Source of the DNA: Acidovorax sp. CCYZU-2555 | GTDB lineage: Bacteria; Pseudomonadota; Gammaproteobacteria; Burkholderiales; Burkholderiaceae_C | Assembly (NCBI RefSeq): GCF_018413525.1 | Contig: NZ_JAHCDD010000003.1 | Coordinates: 62,001 to 126,000 of the forward strand | Direction of reading: 5' to 3' | Length of the DNA stretch: 64,000 nucleotides | Shown here: piece by piece, positions 44,280-64,000 of the stretch | Layout of the letters: each line of letters begins with the position of its first letter | How positions within the stretch are numbered: the stretch's first letter is position 1 | Notes under the pieces: model-generated | Databases searched by the model: none | Told to the model about the DNA's origin: nothing | What the model saw: the letters and a program-made list of their open reading frames with translations, nothing else | Translations under genes and position numbers: made by a program

Positions 44280-44522
44280 TGTGGATAAATTGCGGGCGAT
44301 GCCTTTCCTGCTTTCCGGTGTTTCCTGCGAACTTTCTGGACAACCTGTGCACAGCCATCACAAGCCATTGACTTGAAATGCATTTTTCATGCAATCTTCC
44401 AACAATCCGCACACCTATCCCCAGGGATACACACAACGTATGCACTCGGGTTCCTGCAAAAAATGCTGTGGATAAGTTGAATCCAGCAGAAGCCGTCAAA
44501 TACTTATCCGCGCTTATCCACA
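44280..44522. other. DnaA-box cluster A, left of dinG
   Basis: Three perfect DnaA boxes: TGTGGATAA at 44280-44288 and 44467-44475, and TTATCCACA at 44514-44522, with a weaker TTATCCGCG at 44504-44512 between the last two. By base composition a perfect 9-mer should occur less than once in the whole window. Together with cluster B (47837-48777) it flanks dinG-phnA. It may be part of a bipartite origin, a DnaA-titrating site, or a DnaA-controlled promoter. Confidence 0.6.
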
Positions 44523-44722: not shown

Positions 44723-46885
44723 ATGTCCCAGCAAAAGTGGGCCCAGTTGGGCCTTGAATCGTTCGATGATGTCGTCGCGTCCATCCCCGGGTTCCGCGGC
44801 CGCGATGGCCAACGGCGCATGGCGGCCCAAGTAGCCACTACGTTCAGTACCGCCCAGCTCGGAAAAGTCGATGACGACGCACCCGCGCCAGAACGCTCCA
44901 TTGCGGTCGTGCAAGCCGGAACGGGGGTTGGAAAATCGCTGGCCTACAGCGTTCCCGCGATCACGCTCGCGCTGGCCCGCGGCACGCGGGTGCTGATATC
45001 GACGGCGACCGTCGCGCTGCAGGAGCAGCTGGTGAACAAGGATTTGCCGGCCCTCGCCGCCCAACTCGAGCAGCCTTTCAAATTCGCGCTCGCCAAGGGG
45101 CGCGGGCGTTTTGTCTGCAAGCTCAAGCTCGAACGCCTCGCGGGCACGGGCGAATCGCACGACGAAGCCGACGACCTGTTTGCCGAAGAGGAAGCCGCGA
45201 CCCGGGCGCGCCCGGCACAGGAACTCGAGGCACGCATGCAGTTCTATGCCAGCATGGCCGACGCCATGGCCACGGGCGTCTGGGACGGCGACCGCGACTC
45301 GCTGGCGACGCCGCCCGAACCCGAAGCCTGGAGCCCGGTGGCCGCCGAATCGAGTTCCTGCACCGGCAAACATTGCCCGGCCTTCGAGGGCTGCACTTAT
45401 TACGAACGCCGCAAATCGATGGTGGCGGCCCAGGTGATCGTGGCCAACCATGATTTGCTGCTGTCCTCGCTGGGCGCACGCCTGCTGCCCGACCTGGACA
45501 ACTGCCTGCTGGTGCTCGACGAGGCCCACCACTTGCCAGCGACCGCACTGTCCCAGTTCGCCTGCGCGCTGGATTTGAGCCGTCTGGGCTGGATCGACAA
45601 ATTGGCGAGCCGGGCGCTGCGCGTGGGCACCATGCTCGAAGTCGAGGAAGTGGCCGACGTGCCCACGCACTCGAGCCAGCTGCGCCAGACCCTGCAGGAC
45701 CTGGCCCGGCTGGTCATGGACTTCTATGGCGACGAACTCAAGTCACAGAAAGACAAATGGGGCCCGGCGCGCGTGCGCGCGACGCGCGGAATACTGCCCG
45801 AGGCATTGCTGGAACCACTGGCCCAGGCATCGCACCATGCCAATGGCTTTCTCGATGCGCTGCGCGCGATTTCCAAGGCGCTGCGCCTGGAAATTCGCGA
45901 CAAACCCGAAGAAGCCCGCAGGTTATCCACAATGTATGCACAAGTCGGCGCGCTTGCGCCCCGGCTTGAATCGGTCTATGACACGGCCCAACTTTTGCTG
46001 CAGCAACCTGCGGAAAATGATGACAGTAAGTACGTCCCCAACGCGAAATGGTTCACGTTGGAGACAGATGGCGAATTCATCGTCGTCAAGGCCCATGCCA
46101 GCCCGCTGTTGCCAGGAGCGACCTTGCGCCGCCACCTGTGGTCCCAAGTGCGCGGCGCGGTGTTGACTTCGGCCACATTAACAAGCTGTGGACAATTTGA
46201 CTTCTTCCTGCATGAATCGGGCCTGCATGGCGATGCGGCCGTGACCACGCTTGAAGTGCCCAGTCCGTTCGACTACGCGTCCCAAGGCATTTTCGTCGCC
46301 GCTGAAACCCATGCCGATCCACGCCAGGCCAGCGCCTTCACCATCGAGATGGTCGATGCACTGCTGCACGACCTGGCACGCGTCGAATCGGGTGCGCTGG
46401 TGCTGTTCACGTCACGCGAGCAGATGCGCCAGGCGGTCGATGCCCTCTCGACCGCCATGCGCGCCAATGTACTGGTGCAGACCGCCATGCCGCGGGCCCA
46501 GTTGCTGACCCTGCACCGCGAGCGTGTGGCAGACGGCCAGCCGTCGATCATCTTCGGCATGCAGTCGTTCGGCGAGGGGCTGGATCTGCCGGGCGCGCTG
46601 TGCGAGTCGCTGTTCATCACCAAGCTGCCGTTTGCGCCGCCCGACGATCCAGTGGGAGAAGCCCGCGCCGAGTGGCTGCGCAGCGCCGGCAGGGACCCCT
46701 TCAGCGAGTTGGTGGTGCCGGCCACGGCCATCCGTTTGGCGCAGTGGGTGGGACGCGCCATCCGCACCGAGGAAGATCGTGCGTTTGTCTATTGCTACGA
46801 CAAGCGCCTGGTGCGCACCAATTACGGTCAGCGGCTGCTCAACGGCCTGCCGCCCTTTGCGCTCGAAAAGCGCGCTCCCAGATAA
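44723..46885 (+). CDS. dinG: ATP-dependent DNA helicase DinG
   Basis: 720 residues of the XPD/DinG family of 5'-3' helicases with an iron-sulfur cluster. Walker A AGTGVGKS is at 65-72. The cluster is held by Cys132, 213, 218 and 224 (CTGKHCPAFEGC). The DEAH box is at 266-269 (LDEAHH), and C-terminal motifs QSFGEGLDLPG and QWVGRAIRTEED complete the helicase core. DinG unwinds forked DNA and R-loops and aids replication through transcribed genes. The gene lies between two DnaA-box clusters and itself contains a perfect DnaA box (45923-45931), read as RRLSTM. phnA follows 55 bases downstream. Confidence 0.93.
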   Translation: MSQQKWAQLGLESFDDVVASIPGFRGRDGQRRMAAQVATTFSTAQLGKVDDDAPAPERSIAVVQAGTGVGKSLAYSVPAITLALARGTRVLISTATVALQEQLVNKDLPALAAQLEQPFKFALAKGRGRFVCKLKLERLAGTGESHDEADDLFAEEEAATRARPAQELEARMQFYASMADAMATGVWDGDRDSLATPPEPEAWSPVAAESSSCTGKHCPAFEGCTYYERRKSMVAAQVIVANHDLLLSSLGARLLPDLDNCLLVLDEAHHLPATALSQFACALDLSRLGWIDKLASRALRVGTMLEVEEVADVPTHSSQLRQTLQDLARLVMDFYGDELKSQKDKWGPARVRATRGILPEALLEPLAQASHHANGFLDALRAISKALRLEIRDKPEEARRLSTMYAQVGALAPRLESVYDTAQLLLQQPAENDDSKYVPNAKWFTLETDGEFIVVKAHASPLLPGATLRRHLWSQVRGAVLTSATLTSCGQFDFFLHESGLHGDAAVTTLEVPSPFDYASQGIFVAAETHADPRQASAFTIEMVDALLHDLARVESGALVLFTSREQMRQAVDALSTAMRANVLVQTAMPRAQLLTLHRERVADGQPSIIFGMQSFGEGLDLPGALCESLFITKLPFAPPDDPVGEARAEWLRSAGRDPFSELVVPATAIRLAQWVGRAIRTEEDRAFVYCYDKRLVRTNYGQRLLNGLPPFALEKRAPR

Positions 46886-46940: not shown

Positions 46941-47297
46941 ATGCCTGAACATGTACCAGCCTGCCCCCAATGCGGGCTTGAGAACACCTATCCCGATGGC
47001 GCAAGCTACCTGTGCCCCGACTGTGCCTTTGAATGGCCGCAAAACAGCGCTGAAGCGCCCGAAGACAGCGAAGCGGGTGACGGCAGCATCCGTGATGCCA
47101 ACGGCACGCTGCTGGCCGATGGCGACGCGGTGCTGCTGATCAAGGACCTCAAGGTCAAGGGCTCGTCGACCGTGATCAAGAAAGGCACGAAGGTCAAGAG
47201 CATTCGCCTGGTCCATGGCAACGGCGATCACGACGTGGACTGCAAGACCGAGCAAGGCAGTTTCATGCTCAAGTCGGTATTTCTGAAAAAAGCCTGA
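46941..47297 (+). CDS. phnA: PhnA-family zinc-ribbon protein
   Basis: 118 residues. An N-terminal zinc ribbon with CPQCGLENTY and CPDC, about 18 residues apart, is followed by the PhnA beta domain (IRDANGTLLADGDAVLLIKDLKVKG, GTKVKSIRLVHGNGDHDVDCK). Despite the historic name, alkylphosphonate use is not established for this family and the role is unknown. GAGAGAGT before ATG 46941 supplies a ribosome-binding site. It probably shares the dinG transcript; three hairpins follow its stop. Confidence 0.9.
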   Translation: MPEHVPACPQCGLENTYPDGASYLCPDCAFEWPQNSAEAPEDSEAGDGSIRDANGTLLADGDAVLLIKDLKVKGSSTVIKKGTKVKSIRLVHGNGDHDVDCKTEQGSFMLKSVFLKKA

Positions 47298-47309
47298 GCT
47301 TTCTGGCGC

Positions 47310-47400
47310 CCGGCATGCGCATGCCGGTTGAGCAACGCTCCCCGGTATTTTCCAAAACGCCCTGCGCAGGGCGTACACAAACCGTCCGGGCCCACGGTTT
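47310..47400 (+). terminator. Three consecutive hairpins after phnA
   Basis: A perfect 18-base palindrome CCGGCATGCGCATGCCGG (47310-47327), a perfect 14-base palindrome GCCCTGCGCAGGGC (47359-47372), and AAACCGT/ACGGTTT arms (47379-47385, 47394-47400) followed by GTTGATTT. They probably end the dinG-phnA transcript. None has a long T-run, so Rho help or RNA-end protection is possible. From 47401 to about 47800 I see no gene or other structure. Confidence 0.5.
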
Positions 47401-48069
47401 GTTGATTTCTCTTCCCCCGCCATCGCCATGATGGCTTGGCACCTGCCAACGCGATTCTGGATGGTTACCTGGCCCTGATGCTGCGCATCGCGATGCAGCC
47501 CCGCCTGAGGCTCACCAGCGTCGTCCGTTCGCACCACCTGCCCCACACCCCCAACCTTGCTCCAAAGGCCTTCTGAGGCCGTCTAGACGTTTGCCCAGAC
47601 TCGCCGGCTCATGCCGCCATGGGCCGGGGATTGCAAAGCCTGATCACGCCCCCCGCGCTAAGTGTCGGAGCACATGCAGCACCGGGTTTGCAGGCAGCGA
47701 ATCTGCACAAAAAACGCGATGTAACCGAGTTACACGACTGGCACCATCCACCAAGCTATGTTGAAAATATTTGAACACCTAATAAAAACAACGACTTAGC
47801 CGCGGAGCCCTGCAGCGCCGCACATCTTTCCACAGATGTTGATAACAACTTGTGGATAACCAGCGGTTTCAGTGCCTCGGACCGTGAGTTGTCCCCATTT
47901 CTTGCGGTTTTCCACTGAAAGCCGCAATTTTTTCGTCGGATTGCTTCCGTGAGGTCTGAACTTTGCGCTTTTTCCGCTTGTGACGCAAGACGGATTTCTC
48001 TGGATGCGGTGTTTTCCAGGCTTGTCCCGGAAGCTCTCCTAGTTGTTCATTTATTTCACTATAAGAAAT

Positions 48070-48107
48070 TAGTCGTAGTAGTAGATGCGGCCAACTTCTG
48101 TGGATAA
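48070..48107 (+). other. DnaA-trio-like module 1 with DnaA box
   Basis: TAGTCGTAGTAGTAG at 48070-48084, a 14-base partly GC-rich spacer, then TGTGGATAA at 48099-48107. Read towards the AT-rich side this is a run of TAG triplets next to a DnaA box, as in the DnaA-trio unwinding system described for bacterial origins. Confidence 0.55.
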
Positions 48108-48498
48108 CTTTACTTTCCTGAAGAAAATCAAAGACTTCCGTTTTTCAAAAGCCTGTGTGTGACGCCCTCTTCTTGATGTACTGCAAAAGTGGATAACTTT
48201 TCAAAAACTGAACTTCCTGTTGATAACTTATAGGTTGATATTTAGATATCCACAGAGTCTGGCAGCGTTGTTTTTTCCACAGATTTAGCCTGTTATTCCT
48301 CTTGAATAAACAATAGTTTGCTATTTATTTAGGAGTGGATAACTTTTTTTTTGGCTGCTTTCCATCGTTGTTTTGTTGCTGTGTCTATTTTTTGAGGTGT
48401 GCTGCTGTGCTATTTGCGAAAGACGGCTGTTTGTGGACTTCATGGAAGCTGCCCAAAATTTGTGCGCTGTTGTTGTTCCTAATATTTCTATTTATAGA

Positions 48499-48536
48499 TA
48501 GTCGTAGTAGTAGAGCAGGCAGTTTATTGTGGATAA
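48499..48536 (+). other. DnaA-trio-like module 2 with DnaA box
   Basis: The same 15 bases TAGTCGTAGTAGTAG (48499-48513), again 14 bases before a perfect TGTGGATAA (48528-48536), in the same orientation as module 1 and 429 bases from it. The spacers differ in sequence but not in length, which suggests selection for spacing. Confidence 0.55.
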
Positions 48537-48705
48537 CTTGATATTTTTCATATAAAACAACATCTTACGTTGATTGAAAGTATGTGTCTGGATGGCATGT
48601 ACTGCTGCACCGCGTTTGGGTATAACTTTTGATTGATCAGTATGCTTGTGGATAACATTGGAGATGTCAGAAAATTTTCCTCAGGTTTATCCACAGGCTC
48701 TGAAG

Positions 48706-48734
48706 ACGAAAAAAAACCGCCCTGACGGGCGGTT
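48706..48734 (-). terminator. Intrinsic terminator of pagL
   Basis: Arms AACCGCCC (48715-48722) and GGGCGGTT (48727-48734) around TGAC. On the minus strand the stem is followed by a run of T. It lies 54 bases after the pagL stop and prevents pagL transcription from entering the DnaA-box region. Confidence 0.85.
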
Positions 48735-48787
48735 GGTGGTCGGAGTTTTGCGCTTTGGGGGCCGACTCTGTGGATAACTGTTCCGGT

Positions 48788-49363
48788 TCAGAACCGGTGG
48801 GCGTAGCGCACTTGCAGGAAGTTCTCGCCCGGATTCGGGCGTTTCAGGCCGGCATTCGAAAAATGTTCAAGGCGCAGCATGACTTCGTGTTCACGCCGCG
48901 CGCCGAAATTGGCGCCTACGGCCAGGTGCGTGGCGAAGTTGTAGCGCGTGCTGAACTGTTTGTCTTTGGATTGGTAGTACGCGGAGGACCATGCGAGACC
49001 GGTGCCGGCCTGGGCGAACCACGCCGATTGACCTTGGTCGCCGCGCCAGCGAAAGCTGGGAATCACGCCGAGTACATAAGAGCGCTGGCGCTCGTCCCTG
49101 AGCGTATGGCTTGACCAGTGGCTGGCAAACAGATCCCAGTGGCCCGTGACCTGGCCTGAGCCCAGCGCGTAGGTCCATTTCCGCCAGGGCAGGGTGACGC
49201 CTATATTGGCGGCATACGCATCATTCGCCGCCACGGCTGCCTGAACGTACCAGGTGGGAGAGTGGTCGTTGAAAACGGGCTGGGACTGCGCGCCCCAGCT
49301 GGCCAAAAGCATGGCCGTACCACTTGTCCATGATGCTGCAAGACGAGACATTTTCAACTGCAT
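48788..49363 (-). CDS. pagL: Lipid A 3-O-deacylase PagL
   Basis: 191 residues with an N-terminal signal peptide (MSRLAASWTSGTAMLLASWGAQSQ), then an eight-strand outer-membrane barrel pattern. The catalytic motif LEHFSNAG carries the His-Ser pair and PNPGENFLQVRY the Glu of the PagL triad; the chain ends in Phe as outer-membrane proteins do. It removes the 3-O acyl chain of lipid A. The ATG at 49363 has GGAG upstream and is preferred to a TTG nine bases earlier. The gene is single, with its own terminator. Confidence 0.9.
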   Translation of the reverse strand: MQLKMSRLAASWTSGTAMLLASWGAQSQPVFNDHSPTWYVQAAVAANDAYAANIGVTLPWRKWTYALGSGQVTGHWDLFASHWSSHTLRDERQRSYVLGVIPSFRWRGDQGQSAWFAQAGTGLAWSSAYYQSKDKQFSTRYNFATHLAVGANFGARREHEVMLRLEHFSNAGLKRPNPGENFLQVRYAHRF

Positions 49364-49518
49364 TGTTAACAACTCCAGTGGACTGAATAAATTACGCTTT
49401 TAAACAAGTGTATGGAGGATGAAAACATGTTTTTGACAGTAAATGTCGCGTCATGTTTTTGCCCCTAAGACGCTATAGGGGCATGTGACAGGCAGACCAC
49501 GATCATTTGTCGGCCATG

Positions 49519-50457: not shown

Positions 50458-51498
50458 ATGTTCAAGAACATGATCGTGTACCGCATTGCCGAGCAATGGC
50501 AGGGTACTTTGGAGCAGGTGGAGGAAGCGCTGGCGCGCACGCCGTTCACCGAGTGTGGCGCGACGCAGGAGCGTTCCGCGGGCTGGGTGCAGCCGCGCGG
50601 CGAGGGCGAAGGCCTGTTCGCCGAGTCGGTCGGCGGCCAGTGGATACTGCGCTTCATGAGCGAAAGCAAGATGCTGCCGGCCAGCGTGCTCAATCGCAAG
50701 GTGCAGGAAAAGGCCGATGCCATTGAGCGCAATTCGGGCCGCAAGCCCGGCAAGAAGGAAAAGCAGGAGCTCAAGGACGAAGCCAAGCTCGACCTGCTGC
50801 CCATGGCTTTCACCAAGCAGGGCGGCATGTGGATCTGGATCGACTCCGCGGCGCGCTTTCTGGTGCTCGACACGGGCAGCCAGACGCGCGCCGATGAGGT
50901 TGTGACGCTGCTGGTCGACGGACTGCCGGGCTTTGCCGTGGCACTGCTCGACACGCAGACCGCGGCCCAGGCCGCGATGGCGCACTGGCTCTCGAGCCAG
51001 GAGCCGCCCGTGGGCTTCACCATCGACCAGGAGTGCGAACTCAAGAGCGCAGACGAAGCCAAGTCGGTGGTGCGCTATGCGCGCCATCCGCTAGACATCG
51101 ACGAAGTCAAGGCGCATATCGAAGCCGGCAAGCTGCCGACCAAGCTCGCGCTGACCTGGGACGACCGGGTTTCGCTGCTGCTGACCGAAGGCCTGCAGGT
51201 CAAGAAGATCACCTTCCTGGAAACCGTTTTCGACGGCCAGTCCAAGGATGACGGCGGTTTCGACGCCGATGTGGCGATTGCCACGGGCGAGCTGAGCAAG
51301 CTGCTGCCCGATCTGATCGAGGCCCTGGGTGGGGAAGGGCGCACGGCGCTGGGCGAAGGCCTGCCAGCGGCGCTGCAGCAGCCAGCACCCGCCGAAGTAC
51401 TGGGCGTGCGCATGGCCGCAGCCAAGGGCAAGGCCATGGCCGTGACGGGGCCCAAGGAAGCGCCCGAGGACTCGGATCCGGAATCGGCGCCGTTCTGA
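50458..51498 (+). CDS. rdgC: Recombination-associated protein RdgC
   Basis: 346 residues. MFKNMIVYRI at the start, ILRFMSESKMLPASVLNRKVQEK, AFTKQGGMWIWID, QECELKS and LALTWDDRVSLLLTEGLQVKKITFLE are signatures of RdgC. RdgC forms rings on double-stranded DNA and restrains RecA-mediated recombination and replication-fork processing. The C-terminal tail of about 45 residues is longer and more acidic than in E. coli. AAAGGTAG precedes the ATG. It stands alone with a strong terminator behind it. Confidence 0.93.
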   Translation: MFKNMIVYRIAEQWQGTLEQVEEALARTPFTECGATQERSAGWVQPRGEGEGLFAESVGGQWILRFMSESKMLPASVLNRKVQEKADAIERNSGRKPGKKEKQELKDEAKLDLLPMAFTKQGGMWIWIDSAARFLVLDTGSQTRADEVVTLLVDGLPGFAVALLDTQTAAQAAMAHWLSSQEPPVGFTIDQECELKSADEAKSVVRYARHPLDIDEVKAHIEAGKLPTKLALTWDDRVSLLLTEGLQVKKITFLETVFDGQSKDDGGFDADVAIATGELSKLLPDLIEALGGEGRTALGEGLPAALQQPAPAEVLGVRMAAAKGKAMAVTGPKEAPEDSDPESAPF

Positions 51499-61150: not shown

Positions 61151-61600
61151 TCAGGATGAACGCGCAGAAACCTCATCCGCCGCCGCCAGATCATCCAATA
61201 TCGGGCAGTCCGGCCTATCGTCCCCATGGCAGCACTGGACCAGCGTCTGCAGGCTGCGCTGCATGGCCTGCATCGCGGCGATGCGTTCGGCCAGGCTTTC
61301 GATATGCGCCTGGGCGATCTGCTTGACGCTGGCGCTGGTGCGCTCCTGGTCCTGCCACAGGCCCAGCAGCGTGGCGATTTCCTCGATCGAGAAACCCAGG
61401 TCGCGGCTGCGGCGGATGAAGCGCAGCGCGTGCACATCGGCGGCGCTGTATTGGCGGTAGCCGCTGTCGCTGCGCGCCACCGGCGCGAGCAGGCCGAGGC
61501 CTTCGTAATGGCGCAGCATGCGCGCCGACACGCCCGCGCGGCGCGCAGCCTCGCCTATTGCCACGGGCCATTGCGGTGTGGAAGACGGTGTGGGCGACAT
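61151..61600 (-). CDS. cueR: CueR-like MerR-family copper-responsive regulator
   Basis: 149 residues. MerR HTH: IGEAARRAGVSARMLRHYEGLGLL, then SGYRQYSAADVHALRFIRRSRDLGFSIEEIATLL, a dimerisation helix, and CCHGDDRPDC near the C-terminus, whose Cys residues probably bind metal. Genes around it (copZ, copA) make copper or silver the likely signal. ATG 61600 is chosen because the MerR domain starts soon after; a perfect DnaA-box sequence overlaps this start codon. Confidence 0.87.
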   Translation of the reverse strand: MSPTPSSTPQWPVAIGEAARRAGVSARMLRHYEGLGLLAPVARSDSGYRQYSAADVHALRFIRRSRDLGFSIEEIATLLGLWQDQERTSASVKQIAQAHIESLAERIAAMQAMQRSLQTLVQCCHGDDRPDCPILDDLAAADEVSARSS

Positions 61601-61672
61601 GTGGATAACTTTGGTGATGAGTTGTGAAATGCGTGTGAGCAAACGCGGCCGCGCCGCGTTTGCTCACTGCGT

Positions 61673-61867
61673 TCAGGCGACTTTGTAGCCTTCTTCCTGG
61701 ATCGCCGCCTGCAGCGCGGGGCGCTCGGCCGCGCTGTCGACTTCGACGCGATTTTGCGCGCGGTCTATGCGTACGCTGGCCGCGGGGTCGGTGCGCTGCA
61801 GCGCCTGGGTCACAGCTTTCTCGCAATGGCCGCAGGTCATTCCCTGGACTTCGAATACATGTTGCAT
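61673..61867 (-). CDS. copZ: Copper chaperone CopZ-like HMA protein
   Basis: 64 residues forming one heavy-metal-associated domain with the metal site GMTCGHC near residue 10. It would carry Cu(I) in the cytoplasm to CopA. Its leader has AGGAGAG directly after a perfect DnaA box (61881-61889). It lies upstream of cueR on the same strand (72 bases) and is divergent from copA. Confidence 0.9.
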   Translation of the reverse strand: MQHVFEVQGMTCGHCEKAVTQALQRTDPAASVRIDRAQNRVEVDSAAERPALQAAIQEEGYKVA

Positions 61868-61924
61868 GCTGGTTCTCTCCTGTGGATAACTTCTGGCGCC
61901 GGATGGGCCATGGATGCATGATGA

Positions 61925-61945
61925 ACCTTAACATCATGGCAAGGT
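61925..61945 (-). promoter_or_regulatory. CueR-type operator of the copZ promoter
   Basis: ACCTT (61925-61929) and AAGGT (61941-61945) form a 21-base dyad of the copper-MerR type. On the minus strand TTGACC lies at its upstream edge as the -35 element, with about 19 bases to a CATCAT -10 element, the long spacing used by MerR-activated promoters. Confidence 0.6.
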
Positions 61946-61985
61946 CAAGCGCCATAGTTATCCACAAGGTAATCCACATCTGGGC

Positions 61986-62016
61986 TTGACCTTGACATGG
62001 CGTCAAGGATTAACCT
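61986..62016 (+). promoter_or_regulatory. CueR-type promoter of copA
   Basis: -35 TTGACC at 61986-61991 and -10 TAACCT at 62011-62016 are 19 bases apart. The spacer contains the dyad CCTTGAC/GTCAAGG (61990-61996, 62002-62008). This is the standard architecture for activation by a copper-responsive MerR protein. A perfect DnaA box (61958-61966) lies between this and the copZ promoter. Confidence 0.65.
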
Positions 62017-62023
62017 TGGCTCC

Positions 62024-64000
62024 ATGAACACATCGTTGACTCCTTCTGCGGACCCCGCGCTCACCAGCGTGGACTTTGGCGTTTCGGGCATGACTTGCGC
62101 CAGCTGCGTGGGCCGGGTCGAGCGCGCCTTGCAGCGCGTGCCTGGCGTCACGCAAGCCTCGGTCAATCTGGCGACCGAAAGCGTGCGCGTGCAGGTGCAG
62201 GCCGCGGGCGAAGACGCCGAACAGGTGCAGGCGCGGCTGCGCCGCGCGGTGCGCGACGCGGGCTACGAGCCGCGCACGCTGTCGACCGAAGGCCCGCCGC
62301 AGGAAGTCTCGGCCTGGGCCGATTTCGGCCCCGTGGCCCTGGCCATCGCGCTGTCGCTGCCGCTGGTGCTGCCCATGATCGGCATGCTCTGGGGTTCGCA
62401 CTGGATGCTGCCGGCGTGGCTGCAGTTCGTGCTCGCGACGCCGGTGCAGTTCATTCTGGGCGCGCGCTTCTACAAGGCCGGCTGGCATGCGCTCAAGGCG
62501 GGCACGGGCAATATGGACCTGCTGGTCGCGCTGGGCACGTCGGCCGGCTGGGGCCTGTCGATGTGGCTGTGGATAACTGCGGCGCCCGGCGTTGCGCCGC
62601 ATCTGTACTTTGAAGCCTCTGCCGTGGTGATCACGCTGGTGATGCTGGGCAAGTGGCTCGAAGGCCGGGCCAAGCGCCAGACCACCGAAGCGATTCGCGC
62701 GCTCTATGCGCTGCGTCCCGACACCGCCCACCTGCTGGGCCGCGACGGTGAAGTCGATGTGCCCGTGGCCGAAGTCATGGTCGGCGACAGGATCGTCGTG
62801 CGGCCGGGCGAGCGCATTCCCGTCGACGGCGTGCTGCACGAAGGCCATACGCAGGTCGACGAATCGATGCTGACCGGCGAGCCGCTGCCTGTTTCACGTG
62901 AAACAGGCGATGCGCTGACCGGCGGTTCGATCAACGGCGAAGGGCGCATCGTGGTGCTGGTGCGCGCCGTGGGCAACGAGACCGTGCTGGCGCGCATCAT
63001 CCGGCTGGTCGAGGACGCGCAGGCCGGCAAGGCGCCCATTCAGCGCCTCGTGGACCAGGTGGCAGCGGTGTTCGTTCCCGTGGTGCTGGGCATCGCCCTG
63101 GCGACGCTCGTGGGCTGGCTGCTGGCCGGCGCGCCGGTCGAGGAGGCGCTGATCCACGCGGTCGCGGTGCTGGTCATCGCCTGCCCCTGCGCGCTGGGCC
63201 TGGCGACGCCCACGGCCATCATGGCCGGCACGGGCGTGGCCGCCAAGCAGGGCATTCTGATCAAGGATGCACAGACACTCGAACTGGCGCACCGCATCGA
63301 TACCGTGGCCTTCGACAAGACCGGCACGCTGACCCAGGGCCGGCCGCAGCTGACGCAGTTCCTGGTCGCGCCCGATGCCGACGAGAACGGCGTGCTGGCG
63401 CAGGTGGCCAGCGTGCAAAGCGGCAGCGAACACCCGCTGGCGCGCGCCGTGCTGCAGGCCGCCCAGGAGCGGCAGCTGAATGTCGACGCGCCCGAAGCCG
63501 TGCGCGCCGTGCCCGGGCGCGGCACCGAAGGCCGGGCCCAGGGCCGTGAATTGCTGATCGGCAGCCTGCGCTGGATGCGCGAGCTGGCCGTTCCCGGCCT
63601 GGACGAAGCGTTCTGGGCCCAGGCGGCGGCGCAATGGCAGCAGGGCGGGGCGACGGTCTCGGCCGTTGCCGAACGCGGCGCGGGCGGCCTGCGGCTGCGG
63701 GCCTTGCTGGGCTTTGGCGACGAGCCCAAGCCTGGCGCCGCCCAGGCGCTGGCCGAGCTGCGCGCGCGCGGCCTGCGCACGGTCATGGTCTCTGGCGACA
63801 ACCAGGGCGCGGCGAACGCGATGGCGCGCCGGCTGGGCCTGGACCCTGACAAGGGCGAAGTGTTGGCCGAAGTGCTGCCGGCCGACAAGGCCGCGCAGAT
63901 CGCGCGCCTGCGCGCCGACGGCGCAGGCGGCCACACCGTGGCGATGGTCGGCGACGGCGTCAACGATGCGCCCGCGCTGGCCGCTGCCGATGTGGGCATG
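62024..64000 (+). CDS. copA: Copper-translocating P1B-type ATPase, truncated by window end
   Basis: The first 659 codons are present; the gene continues past the window. One N-terminal HMA domain with GMTCASC, membrane segments from about residue 100, the actuator TGEP at about 285, the metal channel motif CPC (IACPCALG), the phosphorylation site DKTGT, the nucleotide-site SEHPLA and the hinge GDGVNDAP are all seen. It exports Cu(I) or Ag(I) from the cytoplasm. A perfect parS 16-mer (62890-62905) is embedded right after the TGEP codons without disturbing the frame (PVSRETGD). Confidence 0.93.
62890..62905. other. Perfect parS centromere site
   Basis: TGTTTCACGTGAAACA matches the ParB-binding consensus at all 16 positions. 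It lies inside copA. Chromosomal parS sites are usually clustered near the replication origin, and DnaA-box cluster B lies 14 kb to the left. Confidence 0.85.

Follow-up and report, generated by a model that had tools for sequence, protein, structure and literature searches.

A candidate chromosomal origin of a Comamonas species located away from dnaA and comprising two tandem DnaA-trio cores

To our knowledge, bacterial chromosomes are taken to start replication from one origin with one DNA-opening element. The oriC of E. coli is displaced from dnaA by 44 kb. In the basal unwinding system (BUS) of B. subtilis and other bacteria, a DnaA box and a spacer are combined with repeated 3′-GAT-5′ trios (PMC8287927). 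The bipartite origins of B. subtilis and H. pylori comprise two groups of boxes that are separated by dnaA, one of which has the DUE (PMC8235120). The putative double origins of DoriC are single-genome predictions that lie 150–882 kb apart or are tied to a duplicated dnaA region; the cases named in the accessible part of that article include Ralstonia pickettii and no Comamonadaceae (Gao 2015; PMC4403523). In chromosome 1 of Cupriavidus metallidurans CH34, which belongs to the same order as the genome studied here, the skew transition is located ~90 kb from dnaA, and three perfect DnaA boxes are present in 213 nt (PMC2864759); thus, an origin unlinked to dnaA has already been published for this order. 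For chromosome 1 of Burkholderia cenocepacia, the precise position of the origin is called uncertain (PMC4948915), and trios are labelled in predicted origins by Ori-Finder 2022 (PMC10225481). Among the papers listed by searches of the openly licensed PMC literature, none was seen to describe a trio-box core that is duplicated and conserved, or an oriC of Comamonas; a DoriC prediction may exist.

The window, i.e., the whole stretch of DNA analysed here, is 64,000 nucleotides long (C75:62,001-126,000) and belongs to a 143,750-bp contig (C75) of a 5.76-Mb draft genome in 151 contigs. The genus of this genome was taken as Comamonas by inference, and the 53 genomes referred to below as Comamonas genomes include its relatives. 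An intergenic cluster of DnaA boxes in the window (47,837–48,777, no strand assigned) would be, with a probability of roughly 0.93, the chromosomal oriC of a Comamonas species, built, as its sequence indicates, from two tandem complete cores. It contains six perfect boxes (TTATCCACA/TGTGGATAA; 47,851, 48,099, 48,528, 48,647, 48,687, and 48,769) and six boxes with one mismatch (47,837, 48,188, 48,218, 48,246, 48,273, and 48,334), and its GC content is 41.6% over 941 bp, compared with 65.3% in the whole window. The initial annotation, which had described six perfect and at least six one-mismatch boxes in 0.94 kb of AT-rich, gene-free DNA, proved exact by the box scan, the ORF list, and shuffling: in 2000 dinucleotide-preserving shuffles of the 941 bp, perfect boxes averaged 0.009 and one-mismatch boxes 0.227 per shuffle, and none of the 2000 reached a total of 12. 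The whole genome (5.76 Mb) has 34 perfect boxes, 20 of which are located on the 144-kb contig C75, and 16 matches to a reversed control pattern. The other 5.62 Mb hold 14 perfect boxes, i.e., ~one per 400 kb; the frequency of one per well over 500 kb that had been expected was of the right order of magnitude and slightly too rare. Dense DnaA boxes in AT-rich intergenic DNA, as in a DnaA-dependent oriC, were therefore found.

Within the cluster, core 1 (48,058–48,228, + strand; 102.7 bits with the core profile R1) and core 2 (48,485–48,656, + strand; 100.1 bits) are arranged head to tail with a box-to-box distance of 429 bp, and no ORF of at least 100 aa is present between them. The DnaA-trios and the duplicated core are additions to the picture given by the initial annotation. 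The unwinding element of core 1 (48,076–48,107, +) consists of the DnaA-trios TAGTAGTAG (48,076–48,084), a 14-nt spacer, and the box TGTGGATAA (48,099–48,107); in the unwinding element of core 2 (48,505–48,536, +), TAGTAGTAG (48,505–48,513) is likewise separated by 14 nt from TGTGGATAA (48,528–48,536). The cluster thereby holds two TAGTAGTAG-14-TGTGGATAA modules that conform to the sequence rule for a BUS, namely three or more trios (N-A-N) no farther than 16 bp from a DnaA box. At +27 from the box, each core has an IHF-like site, AATCAAAGACTTC in core 1 (48,126–48,138, +) and AAACAACATCTTA in core 2 (48,555–48,567, +), with one mismatch to WATCAANNNNTTR, the sequence that we assumed as the IHF consensus for the scan. 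An IHF-like site within one mismatch is present at +27 in 29 of 31 copies of core 2 (21 exact) and in 16 of 31 copies of core 1, and a scan of the 31 core 1 copies found no offset with an exact match in four or more genomes. At +119, core 1 has the one-mismatch box TGTTGATAA in the direction of its first box (48,218–48,226, +), and core 2 has a perfect box, TGTGGATAA (48,647–48,655, +). An inverted box follows at +147 from the first box in core 1 (ATATCCACA, one mismatch; 48,246–48,254) and at +159 in core 2 (TTATCCACA, perfect; 48,687–48,695).

From the published basal unwinding system, we infer that binding, unwinding, and helicase loading take place at the cores. Most likely, ATP-DnaA would fill the DnaA boxes of each core, be handed from the trio-proximal, high-affinity box to single-stranded DNA at the trios, and open the AT-rich DNA that adjoins the trios to the left of each core, allowing DnaB to be loaded. 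Of the two cores, core 1 probably serves as the principal site of opening and core 2 probably as an auxiliary site of DnaA assembly and opening, although this assignment of roles is a guess.

To the left of the cluster lie a gene for a DinG-like helicase with Helicase_C_2 and DEAD_2 domains (44,723–46,885, +), which we presume to be dinG and which served as the query for finding relatives, and phnA/yjdM (46,941–47,297, +), which ends left of the cluster. The right neighbour is pagL (48,788–49,372, −), and rdgC (50,458–51,498, +) adjoins the origin in several relatives too. The flanking dinG, phnA, and pagL point towards the cluster and oppose the direction of the fork, which speaks against the oriC reading. 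Hairpins resembling intrinsic terminators, called by a consensus scan only, are located on the phnA side (47,902–47,927, +) and on the pagL side (48,715–48,734, −); by the same kind of scan, positions 47,200–49,500 contain seven terminator-like sites, compared with a shuffle mean of 3.3. No RNA element or tRNA was detected at the cluster at the thresholds used.

Perfect boxes are also present elsewhere on the contig. Three are located within 243 bp immediately upstream of dinG (44,280–44,522), and one to three occur within 800 bp before dinG at 26 of 29 loci (L058-L086), with three in G030; these boxes possibly belong to a promoter under DnaA control or to an accessory element of the origin. 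Four more (61,600–62,576) lie near an exact parS site at 62,890, and three boxes are found at the corresponding place in G030. Contig C75 represents 2.5% of the genome but carries 20 of its 34 perfect boxes, many of which are single and several of which are common to G030, and the entire origin zone is rich in DnaA boxes.

As the initial annotation had stated, dnaA, dnaN, and gyrB lie outside the window. They were located on the same contig (C75:44.1–49.5 kb), where dnaA ends at C75:45,531, 64 kb to the left of the start of the cluster at C75:109,837, and thus the candidate sits away from dnaA. A sign change of the GC skew at about 48 kb of the window, which had been proposed as a check, was indeed observed on contig C75 of this draft genome, to which our own skew analysis extends: the minimum of the cumulative skew is at 47,934 (C75:109,934), inside the cluster interval and not at dnaA. 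According to rough gene calls (96 genes on C75), the third-position skew rises by ~0.08 from the left to the right of the cluster, from −0.104 to −0.019 for genes on the + strand and from +0.032 to +0.115 for genes on the − strand; because the rise is seen for both strands, it is not an artefact of gene orientation. A break fit that controls for gene strand points to 104–112 kb of C75, with the best position at 106–107 kb and the cluster at 110 kb, and a break at dnaA had no effect in this strand-corrected fit on C75 (residual 323.2, compared with 323.3 without a break). As 22 of 1000 permutations of the gene order matched the best break of the fit, the skew support from C75 alone is moderate.

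The skew minima of relatives make the origin reading stronger than C75 alone does. Six Comamonas relatives were analysed, with one to three contigs each and dnaA 37–270 kb from the cluster. In four of the six, the minimum is located within 350 bp of the start of core 1 (G019: minimum 53,164, core 1 start 53,180, dnaA at 1; G023: minimum 43,674, core 1 start 43,707, dnaA at 1; G032: minimum 36,665, core 1 start 36,848, dnaA at 5; G014: minimum 555,758, core 1 at 555,413, dnaA at 824 kb), each minimum being that of the origin-zone stretch examined rather than of the whole chromosome, i.e., from dnaA rightwards only in G019, G023, and G032, and 60 kb around the cluster, excluding the organism's own dnaA, in G014. 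In the stretches examined of the other two, the minimum is 9.6 kb off in G018 (509,411 vs. the cluster at 499,817; dnaA at 686 kb) and 40 kb off in G030 (4,134,642 vs. 4,094,804). Between dinG and the next block common with the window genome, G030 has a 39-kb, partly low-GC insertion; this insertion (G030:C1:4098–4137 kb, GC down to 43%) adjoins the origin and coincides with the shifted local minimum. Samples taken round the 5.2-Mb chromosome of G018 change from negative to positive skew at ~0.5 Mb and from positive to negative at 3.1–3.3 Mb, the samples at 640 kb (−0.0001) and at 4.7 Mb (+0.005) being exceptions. In G023, all seven samples at 0.3–2.1 Mb are positive and 10 of the 13 at 2.4–6.0 Mb are negative, the positive exceptions being located at 3.0, 4.2, and 5.7 Mb. 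The switch of strand skew that characterizes oriC is hence seen, within 350 bp of the start of core 1, in C75 and in four of the six relatives.

Other markers of an origin zone are found near the cluster, with parS at 7–28 kb, mnmG at 25 kb, and dnaA at 64 kb. The genome contains five parS-like sites (three exact and two with one mismatch), all of which are located at C75:117.4–138.2 kb, to the right of the cluster, and a reversed parS control pattern gave no match in the genome within one mismatch. The genes mnmG and rsmG and a ParA-family gene, the last called by a similarity below the NCBIfam cut-off, are located at C75:135.5–139.8 kb, 25–29 kb to the right of the cluster, which is thus flanked on either side by one half of a classical origin neighbourhood that has been dispersed. 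The earlier proposal of an oriC away from dnaA is supported by the skew minimum at 47,934, by parS and mnmG-rsmG-parA nearby, and by the lack of a skew effect at dnaA; an origin of the canonical, dnaA-linked kind was not found directly beside dnaA, where the core profile has no match.

Many boxes in a gene-free stretch would also be expected of a DnaA-titration or -reactivation locus (datA- or DARS-like), the real origin being at dnaA 64 kb away, and the isolated boxes near dnaA (C75:44056, 46822, and 47113) and elsewhere on the contig (20 of the 34) are in keeping with such a locus. However, the skew switches at the cluster and not at dnaA, and it tracks the cluster in four of the six relatives; both genome-wide matches to the core profile lie in the cluster and none at dnaA, and trios placed a constant 14 nt away from a box would be unexpected in titration loci. 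A titration locus with the origin at dnaA is thus very improbable; the skew tests and the lack of a core match at dnaA led us to reject it as the principal reading. The position and the predicted trios argue against a datA/DARS-type function as the sole role of the cluster.

The distribution of the core was surveyed with a profile of 44 cores (30 rows from 16 Comamonas genomes and 14 rows from other genera). The strict pattern TAGTARTARN{13,16}TGTKGATAA was detected in 45 of the 53 Comamonas genomes and in 52 of the 399 genomes of the family, whereas the reversed control has no match in the tables; of 250 genomes examined in the order, six have the pattern (four in the own family), and the control has one match. 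Since the pattern undercounts in the family, the profile was used instead. The profile was trained on the cores of the window and its relatives, and those matches therefore arise by construction; an HMM of the 14 non-Comamonas rows provides an independent check and finds both core 1 (E 6e-27) and core 2 (E 7e-22) of the window. With the full profile, the window genome has exactly two matches, both in the cluster, at E ≤ 1e-4 as well as at E ≤ 0.01; the 14-row HMM gives a weak match near dnaA (C75:46,809–46,851, E 0.0096). At E ≤ 0.01, two or more matches are present in 51 of the 53 Comamonas genomes, 16 of which supplied training rows (49 with two; G014 and G048 with three, the third weak), the exceptions being G011 with one match and G047, an 85% complete genome, with none. 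In the family, at E ≤ 1e-4, at least 378 of 399 genomes contain the core and at least 120 have two or three matches (two in at least 107, three in at least 13), these counts being lower bounds from six candidates scored per genome. In the order, to which Ralstonia pickettii presumably belongs as well, 85 of 250 genomes have a match (78 outside the family; none stronger than E 3e-13). The annotated oriC of E. coli K-12 is matched weakly by the full profile, over the R1 box and in the same orientation (20.7 bits, E 3e-5), and the 14-row HMM gives no match to it.

An AT-rich island in a GC-rich contig might be regarded as the origin of an integrated plasmid or phage, yet the core is present in at least 378 of the 399 family genomes, the neighbours dinG, phnA, pagL, rdgC, and thiolase are chromosomal and syntenic in relatives, and no replication-initiator gene was seen among the neighbouring ORFs (six neighbours scanned against Pfam). 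The chance of such an origin is negligible, and this reading was rejected on the basis of the chromosomal neighbours and synteny.

In the 19 Comamonas genomes in which both were located, the core is 16–270 kb from dnaA (with the G030 contig treated as a circle), and sequence records of this group that have dnaA as their starting point therefore do not start at the origin. In the survey of the order, a match in G109 (1534–1671) is located just after dnaA (16–1419), and in G075 the match is 412 kb from dnaA. Among the matches listed, 38 same-contig pairs lie 266 bp to 20.7 kb apart; the two matches listed for G140 are on different contigs, and a third match in G056 widens the span of that genome to 29 kb. 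Some origins are split, with two complete cores, each with trios, 11.5 kb (G070), 13.2 kb (G330), and 3.2 kb (G382) apart. In these three genomes, rdgC and an LTXXQ gene, and in G330 pagL too, are located between the cores; in the window genome, rdgC, the LTXXQ gene, and pagL lie to the right of the cores. The local skew minimum of the three is 0.2–0.9 kb upstream of the upstream core, in stretches of 7–17 kb that cover ~2 kb leftwards. In G342, G409, and G467 (one genus), two cores in opposite orientation are 10–21 kb apart. In family f8, which is not the window's family, a pair of core matches 391 bp apart is present in G078, and pairs ~0.5–0.9 kb apart are present in G502, G621, G651, and G680; these matches suggest that G078 and other family f8 genomes have twin cores too.

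The neighbours of the cores vary among relatives. At L107-L122 (G018:C1:496–500 kb), the pagL-LTXXQ-rdgC block is on the opposite side of the cores compared with the window, and the cores and their neighbours seem to be inverted relative to each other in this lineage. The idea of dinG as a fixed neighbour of the origin was rejected for two reasons. In G018, a distance of 111 kb separates dinG from the cluster, next to which pagL, the LTXXQ gene, and rdgC have remained. At eight loci (L040-L043, L047, L048, L053, and L054), no box within one mismatch was found in the 5 kb after dinG. The record at L044 (NZ_CACSJA010000021.1), named Pantoea sp. 18069, contains a DinG 98% identical to that of the window and a twin-core origin, and thus looks like a misnamed or contaminated Comamonas-type genome.

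With a rule of one mismatch per box, 30 of 40 Comamonas origin regions carry two modules; G004, G032, and G044 have a second trio run with a weaker box. The box-to-box distances in the 30 regions are 428 bp (10 regions), 429 bp (7), 430, 426, 437, and 417 bp (2 each), and 419, 424, 439, 392, and 368 bp (once each). Helical phasing between the cores was considered and rejected, as distances of 368–439 bp in these 30 regions show no strict 10.5-bp phase by eye. When the two cores were compared in register in 31 genomes, one of which is outside the genus, their identity was 43–66% in nine of ten 20-bp steps (−40 to +159) and 34% in the step at +100, with out-of-register means of 25–29%; eight of the ten steps beat the best shifted control, and those at +100 and +140 failed to do so. 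Among the 30 Comamonas twins, the box at +119 is present in 27 copies of core 1 and 27 copies of core 2, and the inverted box in 27 copies of core 1 at +147 and 27 copies of core 2 at +159. Judged by these similarities, the two cores are paralogues. A tree built from 62 cores places all 30 Comamonas copies of core 2 together in a single clade that includes no copy of core 1 (support 0.83), and the core 2 of G055, from outside the genus, falls outside this clade; this topology implies that the duplication is older than the radiation of the Comamonas sampled.

Of the Comamonas genomes that have at least two matches (51 in all), 43 show matches to both cores over their full length, including the trio part. 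In the other eight (G007, G008, G014, G018, G020, G031, G038, and G048), the second core is matched only from model position 35–41, the trio part being gone and the boxes kept (sequences of four inspected), which implies that the opening function of core 2 can be lost. The DnaA proteins of G008, G014, G018, and G031, encoded in longer frames (540–573 aa), align with the DnaA of the window genome only from residue 115–140, and these are exactly the 4 of the 19 searched Comamonas genomes whose second core lacks trios; the four probably form one clade and perhaps reflect one event.

These losses are what would be expected if the locus were one oriC in which core 1 alone works and core 2 is a relic or a non-opening platform for DnaA loading, comparable to the DUE-free subregion of a bipartite origin. 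The skew minimum near the upstream core in G070, G330, and G382 points weakly in the same direction, given that ~2 kb to the left were covered. A relic would be expected to decay, however, whereas both cores are of full length in 43 of 51 genomes, the boxes lie 428 or 429 bp apart in 17 of the 30 regions measured, and other genera keep trios in both copies despite a separation of 3–13 kb; a single working core is a serious possibility that falls a little short of even odds. It is rather doubtful that two separate initiation-competent cores constitute a conserved natural double origin in Comamonas and many relatives. If they did, each core would be able to unwind DNA and to load a helicase of its own, e.g., one for each fork, from sites ~428 bp apart in Comamonas and 3–21 kb apart, some in opposite orientation, in sister genera.

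For the preferred reading of one chromosomal oriC with two tandem cores, it is of interest that the whole core, i.e., trios, box, bend site, and further boxes, is duplicated and that, according to the tree, both copies have been kept since before the sampled Comamonas diversified. Natural variants in which the trios of the second copy have been lost or the copies lie kilobases apart represent ready-made natural experiments, which bear on the purpose of an opening element, on one versus two helicase-loading sites, and on an origin's departure from dnaA.

Among the known systems, the oriC of E. coli (mioC-mnmG, L227) shares with the window origin its displacement from dnaA and the orientation of its R1 box, TGTGGATAA, relative to the AT-rich side. 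In addition, GATCAACAACCTG, which we take to be the IHF site of E. coli oriC, has its start 27 nt from R1, the distance that also separates the IHF-like site from the box in the window cores, although GATCAACAACCTG has more than one mismatch to the consensus used here. The E. coli oriC differs in having one core, no TAGTAGTAG run, and other boxes at other distances. In the accessible part of the report on the C. metallidurans CH34 origin, neither trios nor a duplicated core are described (PMC2864759). The order and orientation of trios and box in the window modules are as in the BUS, and the spacer of 14 nt in both modules is longer than the peak of 10–13 bp and within the limit of 16 given in that paper, the available sections of which do not describe two modules per origin, as opposed to the two complete modules of the window origin (PMC8287927). 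Two groups of DnaA boxes per origin region are common to the bipartite origins and the window (PMC8235120); in the window, by contrast, both cores have trios and are similar over ~195 bp, with no dnaA between them, and the arrangement is not that of a bipartite origin. With the double origins of DoriC, as presented in the part of the article available, the window has in common more than one predicted origin element per chromosome (PMC4403523).
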